NCBI GenBank assembly: GCA_022844135.1
Contig: JALHMG010000019.1
Location: 1 to 64,000 of the forward strand
Length of the DNA: 64,000 nt
Source: Lysobacterales bacterium
GTDB lineage: Bacteria; Pseudomonadota; Gammaproteobacteria; Xanthomonadales; SZUA-5
Reading direction: 5' to 3'
Position numbers and translations under genes: made by a program. Below, piece after piece: positions 2,271-38,246 of the stretch (its first letter is position 1; the number at the start of each line of letters is the position of its first letter). The notes under the pieces were generated by a model. That model was not told the DNA's origin. It searched no databases and saw only the letters and a list, made by a program, of their open reading frames with translations.

Positions 2271-2384
2271 GCGGGCCTGGGTACTCGGTTGTTGATTTCT
2301 GGCGCCAGCGGCAACGCACGCATGCTGGTCCTGGAATCACACCGCGAACCTCAGCCTGAGCATCGAGGAAAACCAGGAACTCCA

Positions 2385-3713: not shown

Positions 3714-3758
3714 CGATTGCACAACCGGCGTACCATGGTGCGTCCGACTGGGAGCAAA

Positions 3759-3990
3759 TAGTGTGGTGTTCCGTAATTACCTTGAACTATTTCCGCGTCT
3801 TTCGACCCCATGCAGCGTTGCTTTTAGCCCGTCGGCGCAGCCGCCGGTCGTTCGGTCGATCGCGCGGCATGCCGCGCAAGCCGATCGTCCTCACGGTCGC
3901 CATAGAAGAGCTATGTCTCCTCGTCGCGCCTTGCCTGACGCCGAAATCCATCGGAAATATTGTTCAACTTAATTACGGAACACCACACTA
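3759..3990 (-). mobile_element. MITE-like inverted-repeat element, copy 1
   Basis: A 232-bp non-coding element bounded by perfect terminal inverted repeats that begin TAGTGTGGTGTTCCGTAATT and are mirrored at the right end. The interior carries the palindrome GCGCGGCATGCCGCGC. The reverse complement aligns along its whole length with the element at 9428-9659, and its first part matches the one-ended copy at 57437. The outermost TA at each end could be a TA target duplication, as made by IS630/Tc1-type transposases. The element has no transposase, so it would need one in trans. Its right end stops three bases before the thiolase start codon. Confidence 0.75.
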
Positions 3991-3993
3991 GCC

Positions 3994-5271: not shown

Positions 5272-5294
5272 CGCCAGAGAGGTAGCCGGGCCAA

Positions 5295-6038: not shown

Positions 6039-6060
6039 TTGGGCGGCAGGTGTCGGGGTT

Positions 6061-7764
6061 TTAACCGCGGATCTTCGCCATCAAGCGCTCGACCAAGCCC
6101 TCGCGCGACCAGTTTTCGTTTTCTGCGGCGCGCCGGTCGCGATACTCGAACTGCCCGGCCGCCAGTCCACGATCGCTAACGACAATCCGGTGCGGAATGC
6201 CGATCAGTTCCTGATCGGCAAACATCGCGCCGGGGCGTACACCTTTGCGATCGTCCATCAGCACATCGAGACCTGCTGCGGTCAGTTGCGAGTACAGCTC
6301 CTCCGCTGCCGCACGCACGGCCTCGCTACGATCGGCGCCAAGCGGCAGCACGGCTACATGGAACGGCGCGATCGCATTCGGCCACTGGATGCCGTTGGCA
6401 TCGTGGTTCTGCTCGATCGCTGCAGCCACGATGCGGCTGACGCCGATGCCGTAGCAGCCCATGAACATGGTGCGCGCCTTGCCGTTTTCGTCGAGCACCT
6501 CGGCGCCCATCGCCTTGGCGTATTTCTGGCCGAGCTGGAACACATGGCCGACCTCGATGCCGCGCGCGATCGACCAGGTGCCCATCGGCGCCGGCTCGCC
6601 TTCGACGACGTTGCGGATATCGGCGACCAGCGGCTCGGGCAAATCGCGGCCCCAATTGACGCCCTTGGTGTGGAAGCCGGTGGCGTTCGCGCCAACTACG
6701 AAATCGCTCATCGCCGCGACCGTGCGATCGGCGATCACGGTGATGGATTTTTTCGGACTCAGCGGTCCGATGAACCCCGGCACCGCACCCAGGTGCTCGA
6801 TGATTTCGGTTTCTGTAGCGAGGCGGTACTCGCCAAGACCTTCGATCTTGGCAAGCTTGATCTCATTGACCTGATGATCGCCGCGCACGAGCGCAAGAAC
6901 GAAGCCTTGCTCGCCCATCACAGCTACGGACTTGACGGTCGTCGCCAATGGCGCGCCCAGCAACGCCGCAACCTCCTCGCAGGTGCGCTGTGTAGGCGTG
7001 GCGAACTGCTCGAGCGCCTGGGTGGCAGCAGCGCGAGGACCGGGCGCAATCGCCTCGGCCAGCTCCACGTTCGCCGCGTAGTTGCCGTCGCTGGTAAAGG
7101 CGATCGCATCCTCGCCAGAGTCGGCCAGGACATGGAACTCGTGCGAACCGGTACCGCCGATGGCGCCCGAATCGGCAGCGACCGCGCGGAAGCGCAACCC
7201 CAGGCGCGTAAAGATGCGCGTGTACGCGTCGTACATGTTCTGGTACTCGCGTTGCATGCAAGCTTCGTCCAGATGGAACGAGTACGCATCTTTCATCAGG
7301 AACTCGCGCGCGCGCATCACACCGAAGCGCGGGCGGATTTCGTCGCGGAACTTGGTCTGGATTTGGTAGAAGTTGATCGGCAGTTGTTTGTACGAACGAA
7401 GCTCGCCACGCGCGAAGTCGGTGATCACTTCCTCGTGCGTGGGCCCGTAGCAGAACTCGCCGTCCTTGCGATCCTTGATCTTCAACAGCTGCCCGCCGAA
7501 CTTGGCCCAGCGCTCGGTCTCCTCCCACAGCTCACGCGGCTGGATCGATGGCATCAACAGCTCCAACGCACCAGCGCGATTCATCTCCTCGCGCACGATG
7601 GTCTCGACCTTGCGCAGCACGCGCAAGCCGAGCGGCGTCCAGGTGTAGATCCCGGCCGCGAGCTTGCGGATCATCCCTGCCCGCAGCATCAGCTTCTGGC
7701 TGATCACATCGGCATCGCTGGGCGTTTCTTTGACGGTGGCAAGATGAAACTGCGTGAGGCGCAT
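6061..7764 (-). CDS. proS: Proline-tRNA ligase
   Basis: Class II aminoacyl-tRNA synthetase that charges tRNA-Pro. The N-terminus has the conserved [15 protein letters not shown] segment, and class II motif 2 lies in the region [20 protein letters not shown]. Between motifs 2 and 3 a large insertion (roughly residues 225-400) matches the bacterial editing (INS) domain that clears mischarged Ala-tRNA-Pro. Motif 3 contains CYGIGVSR. The length of 567 aa fits the bacterial ProS type with editing domain. A C-terminal anticodon-binding domain follows, with [19 protein letters not shown]. Confidence 0.97.
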
Positions 7765-7830
7765 GGGCGTGTCGCTGGCTTTAGAGGCGCGCGATTCTAG
7801 GGGGAATAGGCCGAGTAGTTGCGCAGCCCG

Positions 7831-7914
7831 CTTTTTTGGTCCGCGGACCCATGGTCCGCAGGCTGGTCAATCCAGAATCGAAAGCTGCGGACCATGGGTC
7901 CGCGTACCAAAAAG
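7831..7914. repeat. Long imperfect inverted repeat between proS and dtd
   Basis: The arms at 7831-7861 and 7885-7914 are about 30 bases each and nearly perfectly complementary; they differ by one T in the T-run and one substitution. Each arm contains the near-palindrome GGACCCATGGTCC, so each can also fold on itself. The outer ends are T-rich on one side and A-rich on the other. The resulting stem with a ~23-base loop could be a bidirectional transcription terminator, although both flanking genes run leftward. It does not match the TAGTGTGG element family. Confidence 0.8.
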
Positions 7915-7922
7915 CAAGAGCG

Positions 7923-8360
7923 CTAGCGCGCCGTCAACCAGAAGGTCACCGGCCCATCGTTGGTCAATGTCACCTGCATGTGCGCGCCGAAGCGCCCGGT
8001 GGCTACGCGCACGCGGCGCGAGGCGACGGACACAGCGTGATCGAACAGCGCGCGACCCAGCTCCGGCGGCGCCGCGGGCGTGAAACTCGCACGCGTGCCG
8101 CTGTCGGTGTCGGCGGCGAGCGTGAACTGCGAGACCAGCAGCAACTCGCCGCCGATATCGAGCAGCGAGCGATTCATCTTGCCGGCGTCGTCTTCGAAGA
8201 TGCGGTAACTGAGGATGCGTTCGACAAGGCGTTCAGCGAGCTTGGGCGTATCCGCGCGTTCGACGGCAACCAGCGCGAGTATCCCTCGGCCTATCGCACC
8301 CACCCTCTCGGCGTCGACTTCGACGCTGGCGCGACTGACACGTTGGATCAAGCCGATCAT
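7923..8360 (-). CDS. dtd: D-aminoacyl-tRNA deacylase
   Basis: Hydrolyses D-aminoacyl-tRNAs (and Gly-tRNA-Ala) so that D-amino acids do not enter translation. The protein is 145 aa from the ATG at 8360, where the conserved [15 protein letters not shown] begins; an in-frame ATG at 8375 adds only five unconserved residues. The two DTD signatures are present: SQFTLAAD in the middle, and TNDGPVT near the C-terminus, which holds the cross-subunit Gly-Pro-type motif. The start overlaps the dusA stop by ATGA, so the two tRNA-related genes are probably translationally coupled. Confidence 0.95.
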
Positions 8361-9355
8361 GCCGCCGCCCGCCACTGGTCCACGGCGGCCAGCGCACGAT
8401 CGAGCGCAATGAAACCGCTGCCGGGTCGCGCGCTCGATAGCTCACGCCGAAACTGTCGAGCGCCCGGCTGGCCCTGGTACAACCCCAGGATATGCCGCGC
8501 GATGTGCTTGAGTTCTCCGCCGCGGGCAATGTGGCGCTCGATGTACGGCCGTAGCGACGCCAGCACGGCCTCGCGCGAGGGCACATCGTTGCCGAACAGT
8601 GCACCGTGAATCTGCGCCAGCGCATACGGATCGTGATACGCCAGCCGGCCCAGCATTACGCCATCCACCTGCGCCAGCGCCGCATCGATCGCCGCCTGAT
8701 CCATCAATCCGCCATTGAGCGCGATCGTCAACTCGGGTCGATCGCGTTTCAATGCGAACACGCGCGCATAGTCGAGCGGCGGAATCTCGCGATTTTCTTT
8801 GGGCGACAAACCTTTGAGCCACGCCTTGCGCGCGTGCACGACGAACACTGCGCAACCGGCACTGGCGACGGTGTCGATGAAGGCGCGAAAGAAGGCCTCG
8901 TCATCGAAATCATCGACACCTAATCGACACTTCACGGTCACGGGTACCGATACCACCGCGCGCATCGCCGCAACACAGTCGCCGACCAGCGCAGGCTCGG
9001 TCATCAGGCATGCACCGAAACGTCCCGCCTGCACCCGATCGCTGGGGCAGCCGCAGTTCAAGTTGATCTCATCGTAACCAAATTCCGCGCCGATACGCGC
9101 TGCCTGCGCCAGCAGCGCCGGGTCCGATCCACCCAGCTGCAAAGCCACCGGATGCTCTGCCGCATCGAAGCCCAGCAAGCGCTCCCGATCGCCAAAAATC
9201 GCCGCCTGCGCGACGACCATCTCGCTGTAAAGGCGCGCGTTCGGCGCCAACAGACGGTGGAAATAACGGCAGTGCCGATCCGTCCACTCCATCATCGGCG
9301 CCACAGACAAGCGCCAGGGTTGATGTAGCGTGGATTTACTTGATTCTGCGGGCAT
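8357..9355 (-). CDS. dusA: tRNA-dihydrouridine(20/20a) synthase
   Basis: FMN-dependent reductase that makes dihydrouridine in the tRNA D-loop. The ATG at 9355 gives 332 aa. It is supported by the duplicated 5' end at 10.5 kb, where the same MxAESSK start is preserved. [16 protein letters not shown] near residues 17-32 is the DusA signature. The catalytic cysteine is in [19 protein letters not shown] (Cys103). FMN-binding segments LNGGLMD and [10 protein letters not shown] follow. The 5' end of dusA is a known integration site for prophages and islands; the duplicated 5' fragment described below fits that history. Confidence 0.95.
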
Positions 9356-9417
9356 TCTGCGACTTCCTGGTTCCGTTCTATCCCGCGCTTTTCGCATGAT
9401 CCCGCCCACGGTGCGCC
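9288..9417. repeat. Direct repeat 1 spanning the dusA 5' end and upstream region (putative att side)
   Basis: About 130 bases, from within the APMMEW codons of dusA to ~60 bases upstream of its start, are repeated in the same orientation at 10443-10573 with scattered substitutions. One boundary falls exactly in the conserved APMM(E/D)W codons, the part of dusA used by dusA-specific integrases. The pair therefore looks like the two ends left by integration. Confidence 0.75.
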
Positions 9418-11144: not shown

Positions 11145-13376
11145 TCAACGGGCCGATGCGACCACAACCCGACCCTCGTCGACGGTGACGCGCAACTGCC
11201 TGTTTCGCGCTTCCGGATTCGCCAATCGCCATTCCGCCAACACACCGACAATGTGCGCGTCGAGCGCTCGTTGCAGGGGTCTGGCGCCGTACTGTGGGTC
11301 GAAGCCCACGCTAGCGAGAAACTCGACCACCGCATCGTCCCAAACCAGCGTAAGGCCGCGCTCGATCAGACCTTCGCGTTGGCGCAAATCGTCGAGCTCT
11401 TTGCGGGCGATGGCGCGCATGCTGATGGCGTCAAGCGAGCCGTAGCTGATGACCGCATCGAGCCGATTGTAGAACTCGGGCCGGAAGAAAGCGCGCGCGG
11501 CGTGATCGAAGCCATCCGGTGCGGACGATGAAAAGCCGATGGCGGCGGTCGCGTTGGCGCCCAGGTTCGAGGTGAGAACAACGATTGCGCTGGTGAAATC
11601 GTAAACGCGGCCAAAGCGATCGCTAATTCGGCCTTCGTCGAGCAGTCCCAGCAGCGCATCGAAAACCTCCGGCGCAGCCTTTTCGATCTCGTCGAACAAC
11701 ACCACCGAGAACGGCTGGCGCTCGATACTCTGCAGCCACCGCGGCGCGCGGCCGTCGCCGCCCCCAACCAGACGCGACAGTGCGTCGAAACCGGCGTATT
11801 CGCTCATATCCAGGCGCAGCAAGCGCTCATTCGCATCGCCGAAGCAATACCCGGCCAATGCGCGCGCCAATGCGGTCTTGCCGGTGCCGGTGGGACCCGT
11901 AAGCAAAAGTACCGCCACGGGCCGAATCGGATCATTGAGCCCGGCCTTGAGTGTGACGATGCACTGCGCTGCCGCAGCCACCGCCTGCTGCTGGCCGATG
12001 ACTTTGCCTGCGAGCGCGTTGCGCACATCGTCGAAGCGCAATAGCACATCGTCGCGCAGCAGCGCTTCCGGCAAGCCGCTGCGTGTTGCAAATGCGGCCA
12101 TTGCGGTATCGATGGTCACCGGCTCGCGGCGCGCTCGATGCGCCAACTCGCGAAGCAGGCGCACCGCCGGTCCGGGCACGCATGCCGCCGGCTGGAAACG
12201 CTGATGCAAGGCGAGCACCACGTCCGCTACCTGAGGCTCAAGCGTGCCGCGCCCACTGCTGCCGATTGTCCGCGCGACCTCGCGCATCAGCGATTGTGCG
12301 GCAGCGCCGACGAAGCCTTCGACGCGCACCACTTCGAAATGATCGACGAACCCCGGCAGCAACCGCCGGCAGGCTTCGAACTCGTCGCCAGTGGCCTCGG
12401 CCACCAGCCGCAAATCGCCGCGCGCCATGAACGGCGCCAGGAATGCGGCGACGCTGCTCTCGGGATTCTCCCCGCCTACCTGGATCAACTCAGCGAGATT
12501 TTCGATGGCGAGCAAGCCACGCACATAGCCCATCGCGGACACCAGCGCTTCGCAGCGCGCCTGCCATTGGCCGAGGTACATCATCCCGGCGACGATTCGC
12601 GCGCCGCTGATCCGCCACAGTCGATAGTCCTTGAGATCTGTATCGTCGTTGCTGTCTCGCACCCAACGCCGCGTCGCGTCGAGAAGCAGCGTGGTCTTGC
12701 CAACGCCGCGCGGTCCGACCAGCAACACGTTCCCGCGTTTGGCCTTCAGGCGCTCGGCCAACGCGACGGCCTCGCGCTCGCGCCCCAACGCGGCGCCGAG
12801 CAAGCGCCGATCCCTGAGAGCGGGTTCGGCGCATTCGAAAAGCACCTTGAGGCGCGGATGATCCTCGATGCGCTGCGCGCCGCGGCGCTCGCGCAGCGGC
12901 ACACTCAGCCATTCGATGCTGCAATCGTCCGGCGGCAGCATCAGAGCCAGCCGCATCGGATCGGCATCGCGCAGCGCCTCCTGCGCATAGTGCCTGGCGA
13001 GCGCCTTGAACTCGCCGCCGCGATCGATATCGAAACGCAGCTGCAATTGCGGCTGCAGACACCACAGCTGATCGCGATCGTCGACGCTGCGCACGCACGG
13101 AATACGCAGCGGCAGGGGCTCCACGGGAAACGTGCGTGCCCCGCGTTTGAAGCGCGCGCGCGCCTCGATTCGCACCCAGATCAACTCTGCCTCGGTGTGC
13201 TCGTTGAGTCGCCACGATGCGTTCGCAGCGAGCCAGGCGTGCAGCTCGCGCAACTCGTCATGCAGTGCGCGTTTGTCGCCGGCCCACGCGCTGGCGTACA
13301 AATCGTCGCCGAGCAATAAGCCGTGCCAGCCGCCCTGCGGATCGCGCCACTGCATGATCGGTGTACGCGCGCTCAT
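11145..13376 (-). CDS. HSP100/Clp-like double AAA+ ATPase, third gene of operon
   Basis: A 743-aa protein with two AAA+ modules in ClpA/ClpB order and no middle coiled coil. The first Walker A is GPRGVGKT near residue 222. The following segment AGMMYLGQW (~267) matches the D1 pore loop of ClpB. The D1 Walker B position reads LLAIENLAEL (~290), so the usual Asp-Glu pair is Glu-Asn. The second module has GPTGTGKT (~496), LFDEIEKAAPEVF (~561), a TSNLGA sensor and FFRPEFYNRLD, and looks competent for ATP hydrolysis. The GYVG pore loop of ClpB D2 is missing. Its start overlaps the preceding gene's stop by ATGA. Unlike its two partners it lacks a C-terminal extension. Function unknown; probably a remodeler or unfoldase subunit. 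Confidence 0.85.
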   Translation of the reverse strand: MSARTPIMQWRDPQGGWHGLLLGDDLYASAWAGDKRALHDELRELHAWLAANASWRLNEHTEAELIWVRIEARARFKRGARTFPVEPLPLRIPCVRSVDDRDQLWCLQPQLQLRFDIDRGGEFKALARHYAQEALRDADPMRLALMLPPDDCSIEWLSVPLRERRGAQRIEDHPRLKVLFECAEPALRDRRLLGAALGREREAVALAERLKAKRGNVLLVGPRGVGKTTLLLDATRRWVRDSNDDTDLKDYRLWRISGARIVAGMMYLGQWQARCEALVSAMGYVRGLLAIENLAELIQVGGENPESSVAAFLAPFMARGDLRLVAEATGDEFEACRRLLPGFVDHFEVVRVEGFVGAAAQSLMREVARTIGSSGRGTLEPQVADVVLALHQRFQPAACVPGPAVRLLRELAHRARREPVTIDTAMAAFATRSGLPEALLRDDVLLRFDDVRNALAGKVIGQQQAVAAAAQCIVTLKAGLNDPIRPVAVLLLTGPTGTGKTALARALAGYCFGDANERLLRLDMSEYAGFDALSRLVGGGDGRAPRWLQSIERQPFSVVLFDEIEKAAPEVFDALLGLLDEGRISDRFGRVYDFTSAIVVLTSNLGANATAAIGFSSSAPDGFDHAARAFFRPEFYNRLDAVISYGSLDAISMRAIARKELDDLRQREGLIERGLTLVWDDAVVEFLASVGFDPQYGARPLQRALDAHIVGVLAEWRLANPEARNRQLRVTVDEGRVVVASAR

Positions 13377-16300
13377 GGCAGCAGTCCTTGCAACATGAAT
13401 CGACGCAGCGATTCGGCATCGTCCAGCGCATCGATTTCCAGGCCATGGCGTACATCGACATGGCGGTGGCCGCGGCTGATGCGGATGATGTCGCGAGCCG
13501 CGGTTTCGCCGCTGAATTCGATCAGCGCCAGGCCTTCGTCGCGGCGCAACCAGTAGCCGGTTTCCGAGGCCAGCAGCGGCGCCAGCGCAAAGCCTTCGAG
13601 GCGAATCTCGGTGTCGACAAGATGTACTTCCCTGCAACCGACGAGCCGAGCCAGCGCGTTAGCCATCGCCGCAGCGAGCGCTTTGGCCTCGGGGTGCTGG
13701 CGACCATTCAAAGCGCGCACGCGCAGACCATAGGTTCCCGGCTCGGGCGCCATCAGCAGCATCTCCAGCCATTCCAGCTCGCGATGCAACGCCGACAGCG
13801 GAAGCAACGGCGCCGACTGTGCGTCATCCAGCCAGGCGAACTCATGTCGTTCGAGATCGACGCGCGCGTTTTGCAGCGCCTTGACGCCGACATTGTGCAC
13901 ATACCTGTGCAAGTGATCGCGCGTCCGCGGCAGGCGCCTGGTTCCGCCGCGCGGCGGAGGCCTGCGGGCACGGTCGAGCAGATCGGCGACGATGAGCAGC
14001 TGTTCCCGGCACACGGCGTAATGCGCTTGCCGGGTATCGATGCCGTCGAGCGTGATGCCGCCGCGACCCGGGTGCTCGTCCAGCAGCGTCTCGATATCGA
14101 CCAGCCGCTCGCCGATGCCCTGCAGTCTGCGCTCGTCGCCCTCGATATCCGTCGCCATAGCCTGGCGGCGCTGCGCGAACGGGATCGGTGCGGCCTCCAG
14201 ATTCAATTCGCCGTCGATAACCGCCAGGCGCACGCGCGTTGGTGCATCGAAGCGACTCGCGGCCAGCGCGCGCGCCAGCGGCTGCACCAGCACACGCTCG
14301 ACACCGCGCTTGAGCGCCCGCGCGCCGAGTGCCGCATCGCGACCGATGGACGTGAGCGCAACAACAGCCGCCGGGTCGATATCGATCAAACACTGGCGGG
14401 TGCGGATACCGCTACGCGCCAGAGCGGCGGCAATGGTCTGTTCGGTGATCGCCCGCAGTTCGGCATCACCTAGTTGCGAGAACGGCAAGACGTAATCGAT
14501 CCGATTGAAGAACTCCGGCCGGAAAAAGCGCCGCGCGGCTTCCTCATACGTCGCGCTGTCGTGGGTCGTGGCGGCGAATCCCAATTGCCGGCTGGCCTCG
14601 CGCGCCCCCAAGTTGGAGGTCATCACGATCACCGCCTGTTGGAAATGCGCCACGCGTCCGTGGGCGTCGGTGAGCCGGCCCTCATCGAGCAGCGACAGCA
14701 GTACATCGAACACGTCGGGCGCCGCTTTTTCGATTTCGTCGAGCAACACGACGCTGCTGGGCTGGCGCCGGATGGCCGCCGTCAATACGCCATCGGGCGC
14801 GGCAAAGGTGCCAACGAGGCGCGCGGCATCGCCATACTCGCCGTACTCGTTGAGATCGATGCGGATCATGGCGCTCGCGCCACCGAGATACGTGGCCAAA
14901 GCTTTGGCGCAAGCGGTCTTGCCGACACCGGTGGGACCGAGCAGCAACATTGTTGCCAATGGCCGGGCCGGATCGTTGAGGCCGGCCTTGGCGCGCAGCA
15001 GGACATCGCCCAGCGCGGCAATCGCCTGCGGCTGGCCCCGAAGGTGTTCCCGCAGCGCGCCCTCGACGTCGCTGCGCGTGAGCGGCTGATCGAGATCGAC
15101 GATGCTGGCCGCACTCCCGGTTCGACGCACAAACTCGGCGATCACCGCGGCACGGGTCAGCGACACACCCACCGAACGTGCGCTCAAGGTTCGCAGCACA
15201 TCGGCAATGCGCCCCGGAAAGGCGCGTTGCGCGAAGTAGCGATCCGCCAGCGCCAGCGCAGTGGGGATGGACTCGAGATCGAAGCGCACATCGAAGCGTT
15301 GCTCCAACTCGCGGAGCAGGTTGGACACAATGCGCCAGGTCGCCGCGGGCGGCGGTGGCGCAATGTTGATGACGAAAAACTGATCGGCAAAGGCGCGGCG
15401 CCGCTCGCGCAGCACGCGCCAGGCTTCCGGCGTGATCTCGCCCAGCACTCGCACGCGATGGCCGGCGATCCAGGGCAGCAGCAGATCGCCCATGTTTAAG
15501 CTGCTGCCGGAACTGAGGCCGGCGCTGAACAGACCGAGCAGATCGTCGAAATACAGCACTACGTTCTTGGCCGCCGCGAAGCGCAGAATCGCCAACCACC
15601 GGGCTTCCCATTGGCCCAGATAACTCATGCCGCTGATCACCCGTTGCGGCGCGATGTGCCAGACGCGCGCGGCCTTGGGGTCGTTCGCGTGCGCGGCCAG
15701 CCATTCGTGCAGCACACAGGTCTTGCCAACGCCGCTTTGACCCACCAGCACGATGGCGCGCTTCTCTTTGCGCTCAAGGCGCGCGCCAAGCGCAACCACC
15801 TCGGCGCTGCGCTCGATCGCGCGCTCCCGCGAACGCAGGGCGATGCCGACTTTCGCCAGCTCCGTACCGCCATCGAATTCCTCACCCCCACCGCCGAGCG
15901 CAGCGGCGTCGAGTTCTCCCTTGATCTTGCGCGCACCTACCGGCTGCCAGTCCAACTCCAGCGTACGCACGCGAGCGCGCAAACGCTCCGGCCCCAGCAA
16001 CTGGTGCAACTCGGGCGGCGATTCGCGCTCGCGAAGCCAGGCGCTGAACACTTGGCCGACGCGTTCGGCAGGCGGCTCTTCGCCATCCCATTCGAAATGC
16101 CGCGCCGGCCAGTTCGGGGTGAATGCCAGCGTGCGGCCGAGCGCCTCATAGCGCACCAACAGCACCTGCCCGACATGCTGCTGTCCCCCATGCCGCACAC
16201 GCACGGTCAACACGTCGTGCGTGAATACCGGCGTCGACAACCAGTCGGTCAACGCACGTTGGTCGGCTTCCACCGCGAGGGTCTGCAGATGCGTCAGCAA

Positions 16301-16429
16301 CTGAACCTGGAACGACTGCAGCGTGGCATCGAGAGTCGGTCCGCGCATGCTCACAGCCGCGTCGAACAAGGCCTGGACTCGCACATGGTCCACATGCATC
16401 TCGATGTAGATCGGTACGATGGTCTTCAT
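13373..16429 (-). CDS. HSP100/Clp-like double AAA+ ATPase with release-factor-like C-terminal domain, second gene of operon
   Basis: A 1018-aa protein. The N-terminal ~200 residues are unrecognised. D1 has GQSGVGKT (~231), the pore segment SGMSYLGQW (~270) and YFDDLLGLF (~293), where acidic Walker B residues are kept. D2 has GPTGVGKT (~500), LLDEIEKAAPDVFD (~563), MTSNLGA and FFRPEFFNRIDYV. The ClpB D2 pore loop GYVG is absent. From about residue 860 a tail resembles the PCRF domain of release factors RF1/RF2: a strand-helix region, then LEGFALAPLLASETGYWLRR, where release factors have gG.gaygrLk.E.G.HRv.R. No GGQ or SPF/PxT motif is present. The gene is coupled to both neighbours by ATGA overlaps. 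Confidence 0.82.
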   Translation of the reverse strand: MKTIVPIYIEMHVDHVRVQALFDAAVSMRGPTLDATLQSFQVQLLTHLQTLAVEADQRALTDWLSTPVFTHDVLTVRVRHGGQQHVGQVLLVRYEALGRTLAFTPNWPARHFEWDGEEPPAERVGQVFSAWLRERESPPELHQLLGPERLRARVRTLELDWQPVGARKIKGELDAAALGGGGEEFDGGTELAKVGIALRSRERAIERSAEVVALGARLERKEKRAIVLVGQSGVGKTCVLHEWLAAHANDPKAARVWHIAPQRVISGMSYLGQWEARWLAILRFAAAKNVVLYFDDLLGLFSAGLSSGSSLNMGDLLLPWIAGHRVRVLGEITPEAWRVLRERRRAFADQFFVINIAPPPPAATWRIVSNLLRELEQRFDVRFDLESIPTALALADRYFAQRAFPGRIADVLRTLSARSVGVSLTRAAVIAEFVRRTGSAASIVDLDQPLTRSDVEGALREHLRGQPQAIAALGDVLLRAKAGLNDPARPLATMLLLGPTGVGKTACAKALATYLGGASAMIRIDLNEYGEYGDAARLVGTFAAPDGVLTAAIRRQPSSVVLLDEIEKAAPDVFDVLLSLLDEGRLTDAHGRVAHFQQAVIVMTSNLGAREASRQLGFAATTHDSATYEEAARRFFRPEFFNRIDYVLPFSQLGDAELRAITEQTIAAALARSGIRTRQCLIDIDPAAVVALTSIGRDAALGARALKRGVERVLVQPLARALAASRFDAPTRVRLAVIDGELNLEAAPIPFAQRRQAMATDIEGDERRLQGIGERLVDIETLLDEHPGRGGITLDGIDTRQAHYAVCREQLLIVADLLDRARRPPPRGGTRRLPRTRDHLHRYVHNVGVKALQNARVDLERHEFAWLDDAQSAPLLPLSALHRELEWLEMLLMAPEPGTYGLRVRALNGRQHPEAKALAAAMANALARLVGCREVHLVDTEIRLEGFALAPLLASETGYWLRRDEGLALIEFSGETAARDIIRISRGHRHVDVRHGLEIDALDDAESLRRFMLQGLLP

Positions 16430-19400
16430 GGCCCAGCCTCGGCCTCGCCGATACGATCGATGGCCTGCTGCAAGCGATCGCGCATCCGCTCAGCAATCTG
16501 GTGCCGCGGCGCCAGGGTGTCCCACACTCGCCGCCACTTGCCTTCGCGCAACTCGCCCTTGTCGTGATCGAACTCGCGAATTCGCGGCAGTGGGCTTTCG
16601 GCGACGTTGCGCAACTGCGTCAGATCGATCTCGGCGCTGGCGTTGGTTGCGCGCAGCATCGCAAAGCGAGGAGCACCGGCTTCGCGCGCCGGACGCCACA
16701 CATGGACGCCCACTTCGCCCGCAAACAGGGCGGCACAAAGATCGGCTTCGACGGTCATCGTCAGCCCGATCACTGTCGATGGCGGCTGATCCAATACGGT
16801 GGTCTTGTACGGCACATCGTCCAAAGGGCGCGCGCGCAGATCCGAACCGTGGCGCTCGACCACCTGCACCACTTGCATCCTGCACTTCAGGTTGTGAAAG
16901 GCGCCAAGCAGCTCGCAGAGCCAGGCGTGCACATCGGCAACCAGAAGCAACTCGATGCGATCCGCATCGCGATAACCGGCCGCCAGAACTCGCCGCTTCA
17001 GCGCAAGCAACGCCTGGGTCAATCGACTCGCCTCGCCCGACGGCTCGATCTCGCGATCCCAAAAACTGGCGAGCGCTTCGTCTTCGTGGGTGCAGGCGGC
17101 ATTGAGCTGAGCCTGCGCATCGGCCTGCAATTGGCTCAGCAGCTTCAAGCGCTCGACCGCCGCCGGCAGCGGCGTCAATTGCCGCCGCGCCAAACGCCGC
17201 GCGGCCAGCTTGAGCATCTCAGCTTCGTCCACCAAGGCCTGCAGCTCGCTGCAGCTCAACACGCGCGCGCAGCGCTGTCGCAATCCGCGCGCGGCGTTAG
17301 CCAATGCCGCACCCGTGGCGGCCGGCCGCGCGCTCAGCGTCGCACGCACGCGCCGCTCTGCCAGAATCAGGTTGCTCGCTTGCGGATTCGCCGCCAGCGT
17401 TTCACTGAGCGGCACCACCAGCTCGCGCTCGATATGGCGCTTCAGCGCGCGAGCGCCGAATGCCGCGTCGAATCCGACATCGGCCAGACGCTCGACCGTA
17501 TCGGCCGGCAACTCCGGAAGAATGCCGCGCTGACGGAGTCCGTCGCGCGCCAACACTCGATCCACCTCTCGAGCCGCTATGGCGCGGCACTGATCGCGGT
17601 CGAGCGGCGCGAACGGCACGATTGCATCGAAGCGGTTGTACAACTCCGGACGCACGAAGCGCTTGACCGCCGCTTCGTACTCGCCGCCGCTTCGGCGCGA
17701 GGCAAAGCCCATCGCAGCGCGCTGCGCATCGGCCGCACCCAGGTTCGATGTCAGCAATACCACGGCGTTCGATAAATCCGCCACGCGACCGCTGCCGTCC
17801 GTGAGCCGGCCATCGCCGAGCATTTGCAACAGCAGATCGAAAAAACTTGGATGCGCTTTTTCGAACTCGTCGAGCAGCAGCACCGCGAACGGCTGTTCGC
17901 GTATGCGCGCCGTGAGCAGCCCTTCGGGCGCACCGTAGGCACTGCTGCCGATCAAGCGCTGCACCGACGACGGATCGGTGGCTTGCGACAAATCAAATCG
18001 CGTCAGCCGCTCGCTGCTGCCGAACAAGAAAGCGGCGAGCGTTTTGGCGAGTTCGGTCTTGCCGGTACCGGTGGGACCGATCAGCAAGAAACTGCCGAGC
18101 GGCCGACCACCGCGATGCAAGTCGGCTTTGATCTCGGCAATGCGCGCCAGCACCGTCCTCACGGCCTCGGTCTGGCCGCGCACACGCGTTGTGAAGAAGC
18201 GCTCGGCGCTGGCGCGATCGAAGGGCTGAGCCTCATCCAACAGCCAGGGCGGCAAGCCGGTTTGTGCGGCGAATTCGCGCGTCGCCAAAGCCACCGTCAC
18301 TGGCTGTCCGATCTGCCCGAGATCGCGCAGGAACTCGATGGCGCGCGCGGGACGCGCCGAGTAGCCGGCGTAACGCCGATGCAGTCGTTCGATCCATGCG
18401 ATCTCCGCTGCGCCAGCGTCGATGCGCAGCGCCTTCGCCTCGGCCAGCAGGATCTGGCGCGTCGTCTCCACATCCGGCGCCTGTACCGTGACGGTCTGGA
18501 AGGCCGCGATCAATCCCGGCTCATCGCGCTCGATCGCTGCCAGTTGCTCGGGCGTACATTCGGCGACCACACGCAGCGTTCCGCGCGCGATATCGCCGCG
18601 CAGGAATCCCGCCATCGACTGCTCGCCTGCGCGGCAACGCCCAACCTCCATCAGCTCAGTCAAGTGCCCCAGATGCAGTATCGATTTGGCTTTGGCCATT
18701 TCGCGCACCAGCTCGCGCAAGCGCTGCTGCCATTGCCCGTATCCGCTTTGCCCGGCGATCAGCCGCGCACCGTCGGTCTGCAGCAGAGCCATCGCCGGAT
18801 ATCGCTTCGCCAGCTCGGCGACCGCCGATGTTTTGCCGCAACCCGGCGGACCCACCAGCAATACCGAATGCGCCATGGCGCCGCTCAGCGCTTCAGCGAG
18901 GCGCAGGACCACGGCGTCGAGCGCGGTCGCGCGCATCGGCGGAAACGGATCGGCCACCGCAGCCAGCACTGAGGTGTCGACCTGGTCGCGTCTGGCTGCT
19001 CTGGCTTTGGCCGACGGAACTTCCAAAGGCACCGAACTCGAAGTCAACGTCGCGCCACGGAATCGATCGATTTGCGCCAGCTCGCGCAAACGCGCGCGCT
19101 CAAGTTTCGACAGCCGCACTTGGGCATGCTGTACCACCGTCTCACGCAAATCTTCCTCCGTCTCGGCAGCCAGCGACAGGCCAATCGCCGGCGCAACCGC
19201 CAACCATTGCGCGCCATGCCGCGCGTACAGCACCTGCACAGCGAGCGAAACCGGCAGGCGCCACTCAGCGGACCGCGACGGCGCCTTGATCTCGATGGGT
19301 ATCGTCGTCGAGGTTGGCTCGGGCCAAATGCGGCGATGCACATGATCGATCGCCTCGCGACTCAAAAACGTCTCGATACGCTTCGCTAACGCCCGCTCGC

Positions 19401-19518
19401 CACCTTTGCGCGTAGCACTGATCCGACTCAGCTCGGGAAAGCCGGCCGCATGGACCCAAAATTGACCATCGTCAAGTGGGATTGCCAGCCAGTACAAATT
19501 GAGATCGATGTGCGCCAT
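16426..19518 (-). CDS. HSP100/Clp-like double AAA+ ATPase with RF2-like C-terminal domain, first gene of operon
   Basis: A 1030-aa protein from the ATG at 19518 (MAHIDLNLYWLAIP); an in-frame ATG at 19578 is possible and no clear ribosome-binding site decides. Residues 1-200 form an unrecognised N-terminal domain. D1 has GPPGCGKT (~222) and AGQSGYGQW (~258), but its Walker B reads ILHLGHLTEL (~279), without Asp or Glu. D2 has GPTGTGKT (~481), LLLDEFEKAH (~551), LTSNLGA and a FVRPELYNRFD sensor region; the GYVG pore loop is deleted. The C-terminal part contains ASFWDREIEP (~818), like the FWD segment of RF2, then a PCRF-like region ending TVEADLCAALFAGEVGVHVW (~938). It heads an operon of three paralogues on the minus strand. 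Confidence 0.82.
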   Translation of the reverse strand: MAHIDLNLYWLAIPLDDGQFWVHAAGFPELSRISATRKGGERALAKRIETFLSREAIDHVHRRIWPEPTSTTIPIEIKAPSRSAEWRLPVSLAVQVLYARHGAQWLAVAPAIGLSLAAETEEDLRETVVQHAQVRLSKLERARLRELAQIDRFRGATLTSSSVPLEVPSAKARAARRDQVDTSVLAAVADPFPPMRATALDAVVLRLAEALSGAMAHSVLLVGPPGCGKTSAVAELAKRYPAMALLQTDGARLIAGQSGYGQWQQRLRELVREMAKAKSILHLGHLTELMEVGRCRAGEQSMAGFLRGDIARGTLRVVAECTPEQLAAIERDEPGLIAAFQTVTVQAPDVETTRQILLAEAKALRIDAGAAEIAWIERLHRRYAGYSARPARAIEFLRDLGQIGQPVTVALATREFAAQTGLPPWLLDEAQPFDRASAERFFTTRVRGQTEAVRTVLARIAEIKADLHRGGRPLGSFLLIGPTGTGKTELAKTLAAFLFGSSERLTRFDLSQATDPSSVQRLIGSSAYGAPEGLLTARIREQPFAVLLLDEFEKAHPSFFDLLLQMLGDGRLTDGSGRVADLSNAVVLLTSNLGAADAQRAAMGFASRRSGGEYEAAVKRFVRPELYNRFDAIVPFAPLDRDQCRAIAAREVDRVLARDGLRQRGILPELPADTVERLADVGFDAAFGARALKRHIERELVVPLSETLAANPQASNLILAERRVRATLSARPAATGAALANAARGLRQRCARVLSCSELQALVDEAEMLKLAARRLARRQLTPLPAAVERLKLLSQLQADAQAQLNAACTHEDEALASFWDREIEPSGEASRLTQALLALKRRVLAAGYRDADRIELLLVADVHAWLCELLGAFHNLKCRMQVVQVVERHGSDLRARPLDDVPYKTTVLDQPPSTVIGLTMTVEADLCAALFAGEVGVHVWRPAREAGAPRFAMLRATNASAEIDLTQLRNVAESPLPRIREFDHDKGELREGKWRRVWDTLAPRHQIAERMRDRLQQAIDRIGEAEAGP

Positions 19519-20090: not shown

Positions 20091-20918
20091 ATGGCCAAGC
20101 ACATGTCAACGAAGCCAAAACCGTTCTGCTTCGTGCTCATGCCGTTTGAAGCCAAGTTCAATGACATCTACGAGTACGGAATCAAGGGAGCCTGCACCGA
20201 TGCCGGCATACACTGTGAACGCGTAGATGAGCAGGTGTACCTAGGCTCGATTCTTGAGAGAATCTACAGTCAGATCGACAAGGCCGATCTGCTGGTCGCA
20301 GACATGACCGGCAAGAACCCCAACGTCTTCTACGAAGTCGGCTATGCCCACGCGTTGGGCAAGAACGTAGTCTTGTTGACAAGCGTCGCCGAAGACATCC
20401 CGTTTGATCTGAAGCACTTCCCACACATTGTCTACGGCTCAGAGATCAAGACCCTTCAAACGCATTTGACGCGATTCCTGAAGCATTTGACTTCAGATGA
20501 ATCGCCCGATCAAGCAGCTACAAAAATTGGCCTTGAGATCTTCCGCGGCAGTGAGAAATTATCTGACGGCAACGTCATCATAACGGTTGGAAATTATCGG
20601 CTGGGAGGCCATTTCACACTACTCAACGCCTCGACCCGAACCTACGCTCGTGGAGATTTTAGAATTGCAGTCATTGCGCCACCTCCCTTTGAATTGGCGA
20701 GAGCTGAAAATGGAAAACTGTGTAGTGTTACCAAGCTACAAGACGGTAGCTACCTCCATGTGTTACCGGAGTTCGATAAACTCTTCCCTGGTGCTGCAAC
20801 GAGCTTCTCATGGTATCTGGAGACATTTGGACCAAATCCTGATGAATTCAAAGCCTGCCTTCGCGTTTTCTCGGACGCTGGATTGCGTGATTTTCCTATT
20901 ACGATCAGACGAACTTAA
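20091..20918 (+). CDS. TIR/nucleoside deoxyribosyltransferase-like protein, putative conflict effector
   Basis: A 275-aa protein. Residues ~10-130 match the predicted nucleoside 2-deoxyribosyltransferase/TIR-like family: FCFVLMPF, a GIHCERVDE segment, DKADLLVADMTGKNPNVFYE, then VGYAHALGKNVVLLT. The Glu in FYEVGYAHA lines up with the catalytic Glu of deoxyribosyltransferases, so cleavage of a nucleotide or NAD glycosidic bond is possible. The C-terminal ~140 residues are not recognised and look beta-rich. The start could be the ATG at 20091 or, less likely, 20106. The DNA is visibly poorer in GC than its neighbours, and it sits beside a methyltransferase remnant, both signs of horizontal transfer. 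Its operon partners are not evident. Confidence 0.7.
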   Translation: MAKHMSTKPKPFCFVLMPFEAKFNDIYEYGIKGACTDAGIHCERVDEQVYLGSILERIYSQIDKADLLVADMTGKNPNVFYEVGYAHALGKNVVLLTSVAEDIPFDLKHFPHIVYGSEIKTLQTHLTRFLKHLTSDESPDQAATKIGLEIFRGSEKLSDGNVIITVGNYRLGGHFTLLNASTRTYARGDFRIAVIAPPPFELARAENGKLCSVTKLQDGSYLHVLPEFDKLFPGAATSFSWYLETFGPNPDEFKACLRVFSDAGLRDFPITIRRT

Positions 20919-21178: not shown

Positions 21179-22120
21179 ATGTTCAACCCGGCCAAACGCC
21201 CGATGGTCCTCGATGGAGGTCTTGCTACCGAACTCGCCCGGCGCGGCTTCGATATCGGGGGCGAGCTTTGGTCGGCGCGCCTGCTCGCTGACGCACCGGA
21301 AGCGATAAAGGCTGTGCATCGCGCTTACTTTGAGGCCGGCGCCGATGTCGCCATCACCGCCAGCTATCAGGCGAGCTTCGAAGGCTTCGCGGCACGCGGA
21401 TTTTCGCGCAGCGACACTGAGCGACTCATGCAGCGTTCGGTGTCGCTCGCGCGCGCCGCGAGAGAGGAGCTTGCCGAAAGCGAGGGCGCTGCGGCGCGTA
21501 CCCGGTGGGTTGCGGCGTCGGTGGGTCCTTACGGGGCGACGCTGCATGACGGCTCGGAGTATCGCGGCGATGACGGGTTGAGCGAAGACGCCCTGGTCGC
21601 GTTCCATCAACCGCGCATGGATGCACTCCTTGGCGCCGATCCCGACCTGCTCGCGTGCGAAACGCTTCCGTCGCTGCGCGAGGCGCGAGCGATTCTGCGT
21701 GCGCTGGGTGCGTATCCCAAGGCTCGCGCCTGGGTGAGCTTTACCTGTCGCGACGGTTCGTCGACTTGCGCCGGCGACGCGATTGCCGACTGCGCCCGAA
21801 CGCTGGACGCGGCGCCGCAGGTGGTAGCGATGGGGATCAACTGCGTGGACCCGGCGCTGGTGACATCTCTGGTGCGAACGATGGCCGCCGTTTCCGACAA
21901 GCCGATCGTGGTTTACCCGAACTCGGGCGAGGTCTGGAACGCCACGGCTCGCTGCTGGGAGGGAAACGCCACGCGCTTCACGGCGCACGTGCGCGAGTGG
22001 CTGGACGCGGGTGCCATGTGGATCGGCGGCTGCTGCCGGACCACGCCCGAGGACATCCGGCTGGTTCGGGACCTGGTGGATTCCGCCGTCTCGCGCTTCC
22101 CGCTCGCAGTGGCGGACTGA
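21179..22120 (+). CDS. mmuM: Homocysteine S-methyltransferase
   Basis: A 313-aa zinc enzyme that transfers a methyl group from S-methylmethionine or S-adenosylmethionine to homocysteine, making methionine. LDGGLATELARRG at residues 11-23 is the family's N-terminal signature. The zinc ligands are the Cys in GINCVDP and the paired Cys in GGCCRTTPEDI near the C-terminus. The length matches stand-alone MmuM proteins, with no folate or B12 modules. The 260-bp gap upstream shows no SAM riboswitch that I can recognise and no gene. It ends 140 bp ahead of the MoxR cassette, on the same strand. Confidence 0.9.
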   Translation: MFNPAKRPMVLDGGLATELARRGFDIGGELWSARLLADAPEAIKAVHRAYFEAGADVAITASYQASFEGFAARGFSRSDTERLMQRSVSLARAAREELAESEGAAARTRWVAASVGPYGATLHDGSEYRGDDGLSEDALVAFHQPRMDALLGADPDLLACETLPSLREARAILRALGAYPKARAWVSFTCRDGSSTCAGDAIADCARTLDAAPQVVAMGINCVDPALVTSLVRTMAAVSDKPIVVYPNSGEVWNATARCWEGNATRFTAHVREWLDAGAMWIGGCCRTTPEDIRLVRDLVDSAVSRFPLAVAD

Positions 22121-22260
22121 GTCGATGCCATCGCCGATGCGATTGCCGCTCAGGCGCGCCGAGTTGGTCGATCCAACCTCACAACCAACTGGAGGCTCGG
22201 TCTTGCGGCCAGGCGCGGCGCTCACGTAGGGTTGCCGCTTTCGACTGTCGATGGTTTCTC

Positions 22261-23343
22261 ATGTCCGAGCTGCGCTTGCCTGCTGAGCTGAAGTTCGCCG
22301 CTGAGTTAGCGGCGCTGGAAGCGACCGACGATGCGTTGCGGCCACCGCAATGGCGCTTGAGCCCGAAGGCGGTCGAGACGTATGTCATGGGGAGCGCCAG
22401 GCCGATCGGCGGCGTGGCGATCACGCCAAAGTACTACGGCGATCGCGCACTGGTGCAGGTAGCGATTGCGACTTTGGCCTCGGATCGTGCGCTGATGCTG
22501 GCCGGCGAGCCGGGCACCGCCAAGAGCTGGCTGTCGGAGCATTTGTCGGCCGCCATTTGCGGAACCTCGCTGCTGACCGTGCAGGGAACTGCCGGCACCA
22601 GCGAGGACCATCTCAAGTATGGGTGGAACTATGCGCTGCTGATCGCCGAGGGCCCGAGCGAGCGAGCGCTGGTGCCATCGCCGGTGATGCGCGCGATGCG
22701 ACAGGGCAAGATCGCTCGCGTCGAGGAAATCACGCGCACCAGTCCGGAGGTGCAGGACGCGCTGATTTCGATTTTGTCGGAGAAGCAGATTGCGGTACCG
22801 GAGTTGAACGAAACGGTCAGCGCGCAGCGCGGCTTTTCGATCATCGCTACGGCCAATACGCGCGACCGCGGCGTCAACGAAATGAGTGCGGCGTTGAAGC
22901 GCCGCTTCAATTTCGTGACCGTGCCGGTGGTCGACGACCTCGACCAGGAGATCCGCATTGTTCAGCAGCGCGAGGCGCAGTTGCGGAGCGATTACCAGGT
23001 CGGCGCGCCGCCGCCTGAAGATCTGACACGATTGCTGGTCACCGTGTTCCAGGAGCTGCGCAGCGGCGCCACCAAGGACGGCAAGACCAAAGTTCGCACG
23101 CCGAACGGCGTGTTGTCGACGGCCGAGGCGATCAGCGTGCTGTTCAACAGCGGCATTCTCGCGCAGAGTTTTGGCGATGGCGCCGTCGGCGGCGTCGATG
23201 TCGCCCGCGCTCTGACCGGCGCGCTGGCGAAGGAAGGCGCCGATGATTTGAAGGTGCTGCGCGAGTATCTGGAAACCGTGGCCAAGACGCGCGGCGGCGC
23301 GTGGAAGGCTTTCTACGCAGCGGCGAAGCAAACCTTGGCCTGA
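22261..23343 (+). CDS. MoxR-family AAA+ ATPase
   Basis: A 360-aa AAA+ ATPase, first gene of a four-gene overlapping cassette. Walker A AGEPGTAKSWLSE is at residues ~81-93. The Walker B region RVEEITRTSPEVQDALISIL is near 153 and has Glu-Glu in place of Asp-Glu. Sensor 1 is IIATANTRDRGVNEMS, with ALKRRFNFVTVP after it. MoxR proteins act as chaperone-like partners of VWA proteins, often loading metal or activating a complex. The start at 22261 is supported by the MSELRLPAELKF start region and by spacing; the frame is open further upstream but overlaps mmuM. The stop and the next start overlap as TGATG. Confidence 0.88.
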   Translation: MSELRLPAELKFAAELAALEATDDALRPPQWRLSPKAVETYVMGSARPIGGVAITPKYYGDRALVQVAIATLASDRALMLAGEPGTAKSWLSEHLSAAICGTSLLTVQGTAGTSEDHLKYGWNYALLIAEGPSERALVPSPVMRAMRQGKIARVEEITRTSPEVQDALISILSEKQIAVPELNETVSAQRGFSIIATANTRDRGVNEMSAALKRRFNFVTVPVVDDLDQEIRIVQQREAQLRSDYQVGAPPPEDLTRLLVTVFQELRSGATKDGKTKVRTPNGVLSTAEAISVLFNSGILAQSFGDGAVGGVDVARALTGALAKEGADDLKVLREYLETVAKTRGGAWKAFYAAAKQTLA

Positions 23344-25667
23344 TGGCAGTGAGTCTGGCGGGCGTCCATTTGTTTCCGGTGCGGCACCACTCGCCGCGCG
23401 CCGCGCTGTGTTTGCGCGCGCTGCTCGATGAGGTGCGCCCGGCGTTGGTCCTGATCGAAGGCCCCAGCGACGCCGATGCGTTGATTCCGATTCTGAGCGC
23501 GGACGACACGAAGCCGCCGATCGCCATCCTGGCTTACCGCACCGACGGCACGCCGCAAAGCGCGATGTGGCCGTTCGCGCGCTATTCGCCGGAGTTTCAG
23601 GCGCTGCGATGGGCGCACGAGCATGGCGCCCAGGCGCGCTTCATCGACTGGCCATCGGGGATGGCGCTGGCGGCTGATGCGGCAAGAGCCCAAACAGATT
23701 CCCACCGAGCTGCGGCAGCATCGGACGAGGACACTCGGCCGATAGCGCCCGAAGACGCTGCGCCCGATCGCTACCGAGCGCTCGCCGAGCGCTTTGGCCT
23801 GCGTCATTTCGATGAGTTCTGGGACGCGTTTTTCGAGACGCCCTGTTACCAGCCGGCAAGCTTCCGCGACGCGCTCAACGCCTATGCCGAGTGGACTGCG
23901 CCGGCGATCGAACGCGACGCGGAGAGCGCGCTGCGCGATCGCGTCATGGGCGATGCGATCGCTGCTGCCATTGCCTCTGGCACGGCGCCGCAGCGCATCG
24001 TTGCGGTGCTCGGCGCGGCACATGTTGCCGCGTTGCTGCGCGGCGACCCGGCGCCACAATCGGCGCTGCCCGACGCGTTGCCGACGGCGCTGGCGGTGGT
24101 GCCGTATTCGTATCCGCGATTGTCCGAGCAGAGCGGTTACGGCGCCGGCAATCGCGCCCCTTGGTTTTACGAACGCGCTTACGAAGGCGGCAACGACTTT
24201 GCGCACGCGTCGCTGCTGGTGCTGATCGAATTTGCCGGCAATTTGCGCGCTCGGGGATTTTCGGTGTCGCTGGCGGACGTCATCGAGGCCTATCGATTGG
24301 CCCGGACCTTGGCCGAGATTCGCGGCAAGTCCGCGCCGGGCGTGGACGAGTTGTCGGAGGCAACGCAAGCCACGCTGGCGCGCGGCGAGGCGGCGCCGAT
24401 ACGCGAGTTCCTGCTGCCGCTGCTGATCGGCCGACGCATCGGTCAACTCGGCGCCAGCGCCGGGCGCAATTCGCTGCAACTGGAATTTGCGCAAGGGATC
24501 GCGGCATACGGCCTCCCGCAGATCGATGAGCCAGAGACTGTCACGTTGCGGCTCGCCGATAGCACACAGGCTGGCGCCAGTTTGTTCCTGCATCGCTTGC
24601 GCGTCGCCGATGTGCCGTTCGCCAGTTATGTCGGTTCGCAATCGGTGCTGACGCGCGGGCGCGCGGAGGACGACGAGGCGGGTGGTTACGGTGCGCTGAG
24701 CCGCGTACGCGAACACTGGGAAGTACAGTGGTCGCCAGCCACCGAAGTGGCGCTCGCCGAGCGCGTGATCTACGGCGAGCGGTTCGCCGAGGTATGCGAA
24801 CGGCGCCTCAACGAGGCCATTGGAACGGCCAGCCTTGCCGCCGATGCCACGCGTGTGCTGATCGACGCGGTGCTCACCGACGCCGCGCAGGCCCTGGCGC
24901 GAGCGCTCGACGCGGCCGAGCGCCTGAGCAGCATCGACGACGACGTCGTCAGCTTGAGCCAGGCAGCGCGCACCTTGTCGGCGCTCAAGAGCTACGGCAG
25001 TTCGAGACCGACATTGACGCAAATCGCCGGCACCATCGAGCGCCTGCTGGTCGGCACTTTCACCCGCGCGATGCTGCGCTTGCCGATCGCCTGTCGCGGC
25101 GACGTCGAAGCCAGCGGCGATGCGCGTTCTGCCATGCGCACGCTGCACGAACTGGCGCTGTCGCAGCCCGCGCTCGATCGCGGCACCTGGATGCAGACGC
25201 TCACCGATATCGCCGGCGACGAAGGGCTGGAGGCGACCGCCAGCGGCGTCGCGGCGGCGCTCCTGTATCTGGCGCGCGAGCTGGACGAGGCCGATTTGCG
25301 GGGGTTGCTGGAACGCCGTCTGGGCGACGTGATCCGTCCAGCGCGCGCCGCGGACTTCCTGGCCGGTTTTTTCCAGGTCAACGCGCTCGTATTGCTGAAG
25401 AATCGCGAAATCGTCGCGGCGCTGAGCGAGTTTCTCCAGGCGCTCTCGGCGCAGCATTTTCGCGACGCACTGCCGGCGCTGCGCCGCGCCTTCGCAGTCC
25501 TCGGCGCCAGCGAGCGCCGATTTTTGCTCGAGCATCTGGTCGGGCTGCATGGCCGCGCCGCGCCTGCCGTCGCTACGCAAGTAGTCGCTGCAGCGGACCA
25601 GCAGGCGCTCAGCGATCTGGGCGCCGCGCTGGGCCAGGCGCTGGACGATTTGGGTGACTTGTTATGA
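23343..25667 (+). CDS. DUF5682 family protein
   Basis: A 774-aa protein of the DUF5682 family, found beside MoxR and VWA genes in many bacteria. Near the N-terminus it has LFPVRHHSPRAALCLRALL and LIEGPSDADAL, and later VAVLGAAHVAALL. This RHHSP / EGP / GAAH pattern recalls the EreA/ChaN/TIKI-like fold, in which such residues form a metal or catalytic site; that link is an inference. The C-terminal ~350 residues are helical and unassigned. It overlaps MoxR at its start and the VWA gene at its stop (ATGA), so the four proteins are probably made together in fixed ratio. Confidence 0.82.
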   Translation: MAVSLAGVHLFPVRHHSPRAALCLRALLDEVRPALVLIEGPSDADALIPILSADDTKPPIAILAYRTDGTPQSAMWPFARYSPEFQALRWAHEHGAQARFIDWPSGMALAADAARAQTDSHRAAAASDEDTRPIAPEDAAPDRYRALAERFGLRHFDEFWDAFFETPCYQPASFRDALNAYAEWTAPAIERDAESALRDRVMGDAIAAAIASGTAPQRIVAVLGAAHVAALLRGDPAPQSALPDALPTALAVVPYSYPRLSEQSGYGAGNRAPWFYERAYEGGNDFAHASLLVLIEFAGNLRARGFSVSLADVIEAYRLARTLAEIRGKSAPGVDELSEATQATLARGEAAPIREFLLPLLIGRRIGQLGASAGRNSLQLEFAQGIAAYGLPQIDEPETVTLRLADSTQAGASLFLHRLRVADVPFASYVGSQSVLTRGRAEDDEAGGYGALSRVREHWEVQWSPATEVALAERVIYGERFAEVCERRLNEAIGTASLAADATRVLIDAVLTDAAQALARALDAAERLSSIDDDVVSLSQAARTLSALKSYGSSRPTLTQIAGTIERLLVGTFTRAMLRLPIACRGDVEASGDARSAMRTLHELALSQPALDRGTWMQTLTDIAGDEGLEATASGVAAALLYLARELDEADLRGLLERRLGDVIRPARAADFLAGFFQVNALVLLKNREIVAALSEFLQALSAQHFRDALPALRRAFAVLGASERRFLLEHLVGLHGRAAPAVATQVVAAADQQALSDLGAALGQALDDLGDLL

Positions 25668-38240: not shown

Positions 38241-38246
38241 CTTTGT

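Follow-up and report, generated by a model that had tools for sequence, protein, structure and literature searches.

The closest described parallels for the locus studied here are the class I HSP100/Clp ATPases ClpB and ClpA and the bacterial release factor RF2 (prfB). In release factor structures, the stop codon is read by the motifs GxGGxE, PxT/SPF, and HTS. Mixed rings of paralogous ATPases in which the first AAA+ tier (D1) is inactive and the second (D2) active are represented by Pex1/Pex6, which is eukaryotic, belongs to a different AAA class, and has no release factor–like part. In open-access full texts, a body of literature that excludes most subscription papers as well as preprints, we found no earlier description of HSP100–RF2 fusions, of an HSP100 ATPase combined with a gutted RF2, or of the gene triple reported below; a review of release factors (PMC6514570) does not mention Clp, and PMC7159879 mentions Clp and not release factors.

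We analyzed a stretch of 64,000 nucleotides from a Lysobacterales bacterium (the window), in which three minus-strand open reading frames (ORFs) were confirmed and named A, B, and C by transcription order. Their start codons lie at 19518 (A, N-terminus MAHIDL), 16429 (B, MKTIVP), and 13376 (C, MSARTP), the A/B and B/C junctions are ATGA overlaps as read from the sequence, and the products are 1030, 1018, and 743 aa long. Pfam assigns to each of them two AAA+ modules followed by ClpB_D2-small (PF10431), with AAA_2 (PF07724) at E-values of 1e-33 to 9e-40. A and B continue into extra C-terminal tails of ~300 residues, from about residue 722 in A and 737 in B, and C has no tail. This is the layout that a sequence-only reading of the window had described (three ATGA-overlapping genes with two AAA+ modules each, the first two tailed), and ORFs and Pfam uphold it. 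Elsewhere, the host genome (5.34 Mb) encodes ordinary ATPases of the ClpA and ClpB kind as well as release factors of the RF1/RF2 type, and thus the triple is no substitute for these. The features of the locus, with the evidence for each in brackets where it goes beyond the motifs named, are:

16426..19518, minus strand: gene A, first of the triple, with N-domain, D1, D2, and RF2-like tail (ORF, Pfam, orthologues, clade)
18994..19518, minus strand: A N-terminal domain, residues 1-175, homologous to the B and C N-domains, second half weakly HicB/UPF0150-like (hhalign, PDB profile match)
18274..18903, minus strand: A D1, which retains Walker A, has a Walker B with its acidic pair replaced (ILHLGHL), and lacks both the Arg finger and an aromatic pore-loop residue
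17359..18171, minus strand: A D2, ATPase site complete, GYVG pore loop deleted
16429..17355, minus strand: A tail, residues 722-1030, RF2 domain 1 plus domains 2/4, without domain 3 (PDB profile search, model, Foldseek, structure alignment)
13373..16429, minus strand: gene B, with N-domain, D1, D2, and RF2-like tail (ORF, Pfam, orthologues, clade)
15935..16429, minus strand: B N-terminal domain (hhalign)
15185..15835, minus strand: B D1, in which Walker B (VLYFDDL) has D in place of the catalytic E and the Arg finger is missing
14225..15091, minus strand: B D2, ATPase site complete, GYVG loop deleted
13376..14221, minus strand: B tail, residues 737-1018, of which 896-1018 correspond to RF2 domains 2/4 without domain 3 (model, structure alignment Z 12.2, hhalign to single-gene tails E 8e-9)
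11145..13376, minus strand: gene C, with N-domain, D1 (Walker B LLAIENL), D2 (site complete, GYVG loop deleted), and no tail

The motor modules were surveyed for motifs in 127 sequences, comprising A, B, C, and a related single-gene type. Wherever D2 is covered, its Walker A Lys, Walker B Asp-Glu, sensor 1 Asn, Arg finger, and sensor 2 Arg are invariant. D1 retains Walker A, and its Walker B pair reads Gly-Asn in A, Asp-Asp in B, Glu-Asn in C, and Pro-Asp in the single-gene type, so that the catalytic Glu is replaced by N, D, N, and D, respectively; the Arg finger is gone from all groups. The D1 pore-loop position holds Tyr or Phe in nearly all B and C sequences and Gly in A. None of the 127 sequences has the GYVG pore loop of D2, which is present in the host's own ClpA and ClpB, and the corresponding segment spans 16-22 residues (mostly 17-19) compared with 22 in those two proteins. 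The triple is probably not a threader that works through a D2 loop as ClpB does, and some threading is possible, given the D1 Walker A and the aromatic pore-loop residue of B and C. Near the aligned ClpP-docking position, [LIVM]G[FLVIM] occurs in 23/34 A, 23/27 B, 15/21 C, and 25/45 single-gene sequences. An [LIVM]GF tripeptide lies near the ClpP-docking-loop position in many D2 modules of the A, B, C, and single-gene types (D2 modules at 11454-18105 in the window), and a ClpP-linked unfoldase, as this tripeptide might suggest, is only a lead. Each N-domain of the triple is homologous to the other two (hhalign 92-96%). The sole PDB match to the A N-domain profile is 2yzt (TTHA1756), at E 0.012, a UPF0150 protein that has served as a template for HicB (PMC4848639), and the N-domain likely contains a HicB-like module.

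The critical question is what the tails are. The window A and B tails by themselves give no significant Pfam match, and none to PCRF. The bridge to release factors is provided by relatives, among which a search with PCRF (PF03462) matched the C-terminal part of single-gene HSP100 proteins above the Pfam cut-off, in 40 of 43 single-gene tails and with a best E of 5.4e-12. When a profile of the single-gene tails was compared with all PDB sequences, 41 release factor chains ranked first, RF2 ahead of RF1 (best E 6.7e-18 vs about 1e-9), and the alignment covered RF2 domain 1, the PCRF core, and then, with domain 3 skipped, the RF2 C-terminus. The profile of 34 A tails gave the same kind of result, with RF2 as all of the top 19 PDB matches (E 2.2e-5) and three collinear pieces equivalent to domain 1, the PCRF core, and the C-terminus. 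RF2 was also first for the profile of 26 B tails, as a weak match (E 0.089). In profile–profile comparisons, single-gene tails matched release factors at E 4e-9 and were themselves matched by A tails at E 2e-9 and B tails at E 8e-9; for these A and B matches, none of 40 block-shuffled controls scored as well and the reversed control came nowhere near. The B tail matched release factors directly at E 0.026, with 1 of 40 shuffles as good, and because this direct match is weak, B is assigned by way of the single-gene tails and the structural model. Tails diverge fast, at 15-20% identity. The sequence-only reading had placed GEVGVHVW of A and LLASETGYWLRR of B on the RF2 segment 'GWLRTETGVHRLVR', which is where both fall in our alignments; it had also equated ASFWDREIEP of A with the RF2 FW motif, and in the profile alignments this stretch lies off that motif. 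We therefore regard the FW in A as a coincidence and not a signature of RF2 domain 1: FW occurs in 8/34 A tails vs 40/43 single-gene tails, where it is aligned.

Models of the tails were built with AlphaFold2 from orthologue alignments. In a Foldseek search of the PDB with the A model (pLDDT 89, pTM 0.84), RF1 or RF2 accounted for 31 of 31 matches at E <= 1e-3. The model aligned best to Escherichia coli RF2, at Z 13.8 over 259 residues (model 15-298 on RF2 4-364) with an rmsd of 6.5 Å, which we take to reflect a different hinging of two domains, since the part corresponding to domains 2/4 alone fits RF2 at about 3-4 Å. In the B model (pLDDT 82.6, pTM 0.78), tail residues 93-139, which belong to the domain 1 part, are unreliable. 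It matches RF2 at Z 12.2 and 2.5 Å over 118 residues with 20% identity; across the PDB, 37 release factor entries score Z 10 or more, three incomplete structures of RF2 or PrfH score 6-7, and unrelated folds reach Z 4.8 or less. Profiles and models together identify the A and B tails as an RF2-derived module that comprises domain 1 and domains 2/4 and lacks domain 3. The comparison of predicted tail structures with RF1/RF2, proposed along with the first reading, thus found the match, and the PCRF core recognized there was part of a larger resemblance, for RF2 domain 1 and the C-terminal domain 4 segment, both overlooked at that time, are also present.

What the tails have lost was judged against reference positions that are at least 90% identical in the RF1 and RF2 of relatives. 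In the single-gene tails, positions of structural importance (MY, GxxA, ExGxH, RxY, D, and GxD) are retained, and GxGGxE, HRxxR, and HTS are gone. Neither GxGGxE nor HTS was found in any A or B tail, SPF was found in 0 of 103 tails, and HRxxR is rare (7/34 A tails, 1/26 B tails). The GGQ-bearing domain 3 is missing from A and B tails, and the single GGQ encountered among 34 A tails is wrongly placed and due to chance. These counts agree with the earlier observation that GGQ and the motifs that read stop codons are absent. With the GGQ domain and the codon-reading motifs gone, neither stop-codon decoding nor peptidyl-tRNA hydrolysis is expected of the tails, and as judged by these motifs the triple is neither a peptidyl-tRNA hydrolase nor a stop-codon decoder.

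A scan of a genome collection with A recovered 80 loci; A orthologues occur at 33 of them, mostly followed immediately by B and C in unchanged order (ORFs assigned by best match). Cultured carriers include Zavarzinella formosa and Acanthopleuribacter pedis. The triple is found in this order in Planctomycetota, Verrucomicrobiota, Acidobacteriota (Holophagae, Acanthopleuribacter), Riflebacteria, and a Lysobacterales relative (82% identity), and a Lentisphaerae contig carries A and ends soon after. Its occurrence in several phyla answers the question, left by the sequence-only reading, of whether the genes are found together elsewhere. In a tree of the D1–D2 region, A, B, and C are each monophyletic (support 97, 99, and 100) and stand apart from the single-gene relatives and from ClpA/ClpB; this tree was made with a quick method and has long branches, and its deeper order is not relied on. 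On sequence grounds, the three genes go back to ancient duplications and have been retained together. Among 199 evenly sampled Planctomycetota genomes, with presence thresholds set to part orthologues from paralogues, C occurs in 12, B in the same 12 and one more, and A in those 13 and two more (Fisher p about 1e-17 for co-occurrence, a value that ignores the relatedness of the genomes). In four genomes (G101, G103, G106, G110), C or all three genes are unlinked, and in two others (G181, G233) the genes lie on separate contigs, yet each of these genomes has the complete set; part of this apparent unlinking may be due to broken contigs. That the genes are found together even where they are not linked is our strongest indication that the products of A, B, and C may act jointly. 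The distribution of the triple is patchy: it is rare in the window's own order (2/101 genomes) and present in about 6-8% of sampled Planctomycetota.

Clustering of ORFs around 32 triple loci and 45 single-gene loci yielded, as conserved neighbors, just antisense shadows, housekeeping genes, and synteny of close relatives, so that function cannot be read from context. At locus L009, similarity to the window stops at both ends of the triple, and the flanks differ between the two Lysobacterales genomes. A plasmid search gave no match to the triple, phage matches were to general Clp ATPases with coverage limited to the AAA part, and PADLOC matched nothing in the triple beyond general AAA similarity. 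Several other features of the window were recorded. On one side of the triple are a proteasome-type protease subunit and an AAA_2 ATPase that together resemble HslVU (1731-3713), a class II synthetase that carries an editing domain and is probably ProRS (6061-7764), a DTD-like ORF (7923-8375), and a dihydrouridine synthase (8357-9409); the translation-related genes of 1731-9409 are apparently chromosomal background. On the other side, a divergent ORF at 20091-20918 has a nucleoside deoxyribosyltransferase-like match and a weak PADLOC match to a TIR effector, and no DNA match to this ORF was seen beside the triple at L009. Further along, 21655-29745 (plus strand) encodes a MoxR-like AAA_5 protein, DUF5682, VWA_CoxE, and a HEAT-repeat protein, and resembles MoxR-vWA conflict systems; G+C falls to 0.56-0.57 in 36001-42000, and 38247-41090 encodes a P-loop protein that is both ParA-like and ORC-CDC6-like, adjoined by an ORF without Pfam match (37221-38240).

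The reading that we favor, and regard as evenly poised between right and wrong, is that the triple encodes a stand-alone HSP100-type machine, a mixed ring driven by D2 that would use gutted RF2 as a docking surface. A, B, and C would form one ring, probably six-membered, in which D1 would act as an ATP-binding assembly tier and D2 would do the work. B and C would touch the client through their aromatic D1 loops, and the gutted RF2 modules would hang off A and B at their C-terminal face, the exit side, where their surface could recruit a partner, possibly a former ligand of RF2, to be remodeled or evicted upon ATP hydrolysis by D2. That each subunit has its own fixed D1 defect fits an asymmetric mixed ring. 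The mixed ring had already been suggested from the sequence, and it gains indirect support from the three clades, from co-occurrence even where genes are unlinked, and from the subunit-specific defects. The accompanying suggestion, that the ring docks on ribosomes, has not gained support: the tails have lost GxGGxE, SPF/PxT, and HTS, and with them the universal basic motif HRxxR, and no neighbor is tied to translation. Docking on ribosomes or termination complexes would still be the most appealing version of the favored reading. As a specific alternative, ribosome docking would mean rescue or recycling, with the tails in the A site or on the GTPase-associated center of ribosomes that are stalled or idle, where the ring would pull on or evict a component. 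Retention of both ribosome-facing parts of RF2 (domain 1 and domains 2/4) and of universal structural residues in single-gene tails speaks for it, whereas the lost motifs, GGQ among them, and the lack of linkage to translation genes (the ProRS-, DTD-, and Dus-like genes of the window are not beside the triple in L009) speak against it, and we consider it unlikely, if still a serious candidate. Net charge of the tails, considered as a hint of ribosome binding, is uninformative, as release factors are themselves mostly acidic.

Alternatively, the RF2 module could be purely structural, serving ring assembly or capping with no partner in translation. Conservation of fold residues alongside loss of contact residues, and the fast divergence of the tails, would suit such a role; however, the C-terminal segment of single-gene tails is highly conserved, which suggests a specific contact, and C manages without a tail, and we think this improbable. 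A conflict system, in which gutted RF2 would lure a toxin or invader directed against release factors and the AAA+ ring would respond, could explain the patchy distribution and the differing flanks of the two Lysobacterales genomes. Such a system is made very improbable by the absence of an effector gene conserved with the triple, of a plasmid match, and of any specific PADLOC match. Finally, A and B could be ordinary ClpB/ClpA paralogues whose tails resemble RF2 by chance, as the missing Pfam PCRF match of the window tails might suggest; we give this almost no credence, since release factors come up in every one of the independent searches by sequence and by structure, and chance similarity of the tails is ruled out by shuffle controls, PDB profile searches, and structure matches. 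The favored reading of a D2-driven mixed ring could be extended to a three-subunit AAA+ ring with a dead, codon-blind RF2 as its targeting arm that remodels ribosomes or termination/rescue complexes, which we consider rather doubtful. If true, it would amount to ATP-driven translation quality control outside every known rescue pathway (tmRNA, ArfA, ArfB, PrfH, RqcH).

Compared with ClpB and ClpA, the triple shares two AAA+ modules in the same order, a complete D2 site, and ClpB_D2-small. In contrast to them, its D1 is catalytically degenerate, its D2 lacks the GYVG loop, its N-domain is not recognized as Clp_N, and it adds an RF2-derived tail (A and B) and three co-occurring paralogues; whole-protein scores against the ClpA/ClpB NCBIfam equivalogs are strong, at 247-311 bits, and fall far short of the cut-offs of 993-1232. 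With RF2 the tails have in common the fold of domains 1 and 2/4, ExGxH, RxY, and the C-terminal GD/RTG segments, whereas domain 3 (GGQ), SPF, GxGGxE, HRxxR, and HTS are missing and the tails are fused to an ATPase. The nearest relatives, single-gene HSP100–PCRF ATPases for which we likewise found no published description, share the D1 losses, the D2 loop deletion, and the RF2-type tail, and differ in that they are encoded by one gene of about 1130 aa, form a separate clade, and are mostly membrane-anchored (hydrophobic N-terminal segment in 34/45). They occur in Lysobacter, Xanthomonas, Hyphomicrobium, Acidobacteriota, and others (L043-L088; e.g., L047:9296-12613, L044:9071-12520), and their tail end, VVRRYRExPSPLVRD...RTG...VLxGDFD, is among the most conserved tail parts. 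RF2, minus its catalytic domain and codon-reading parts, has been recruited as an accessory of Clp-type ATPases, in a widespread single-gene form and a three-subunit form, making the triple a concrete candidate for a link between a protein-remodeling motor and the translation termination machinery. With it, the idea of a mixed HSP100 ring in bacteria whose D1 tier is inactive can be put to the test, a ring that in outline would work like Pex1/Pex6.
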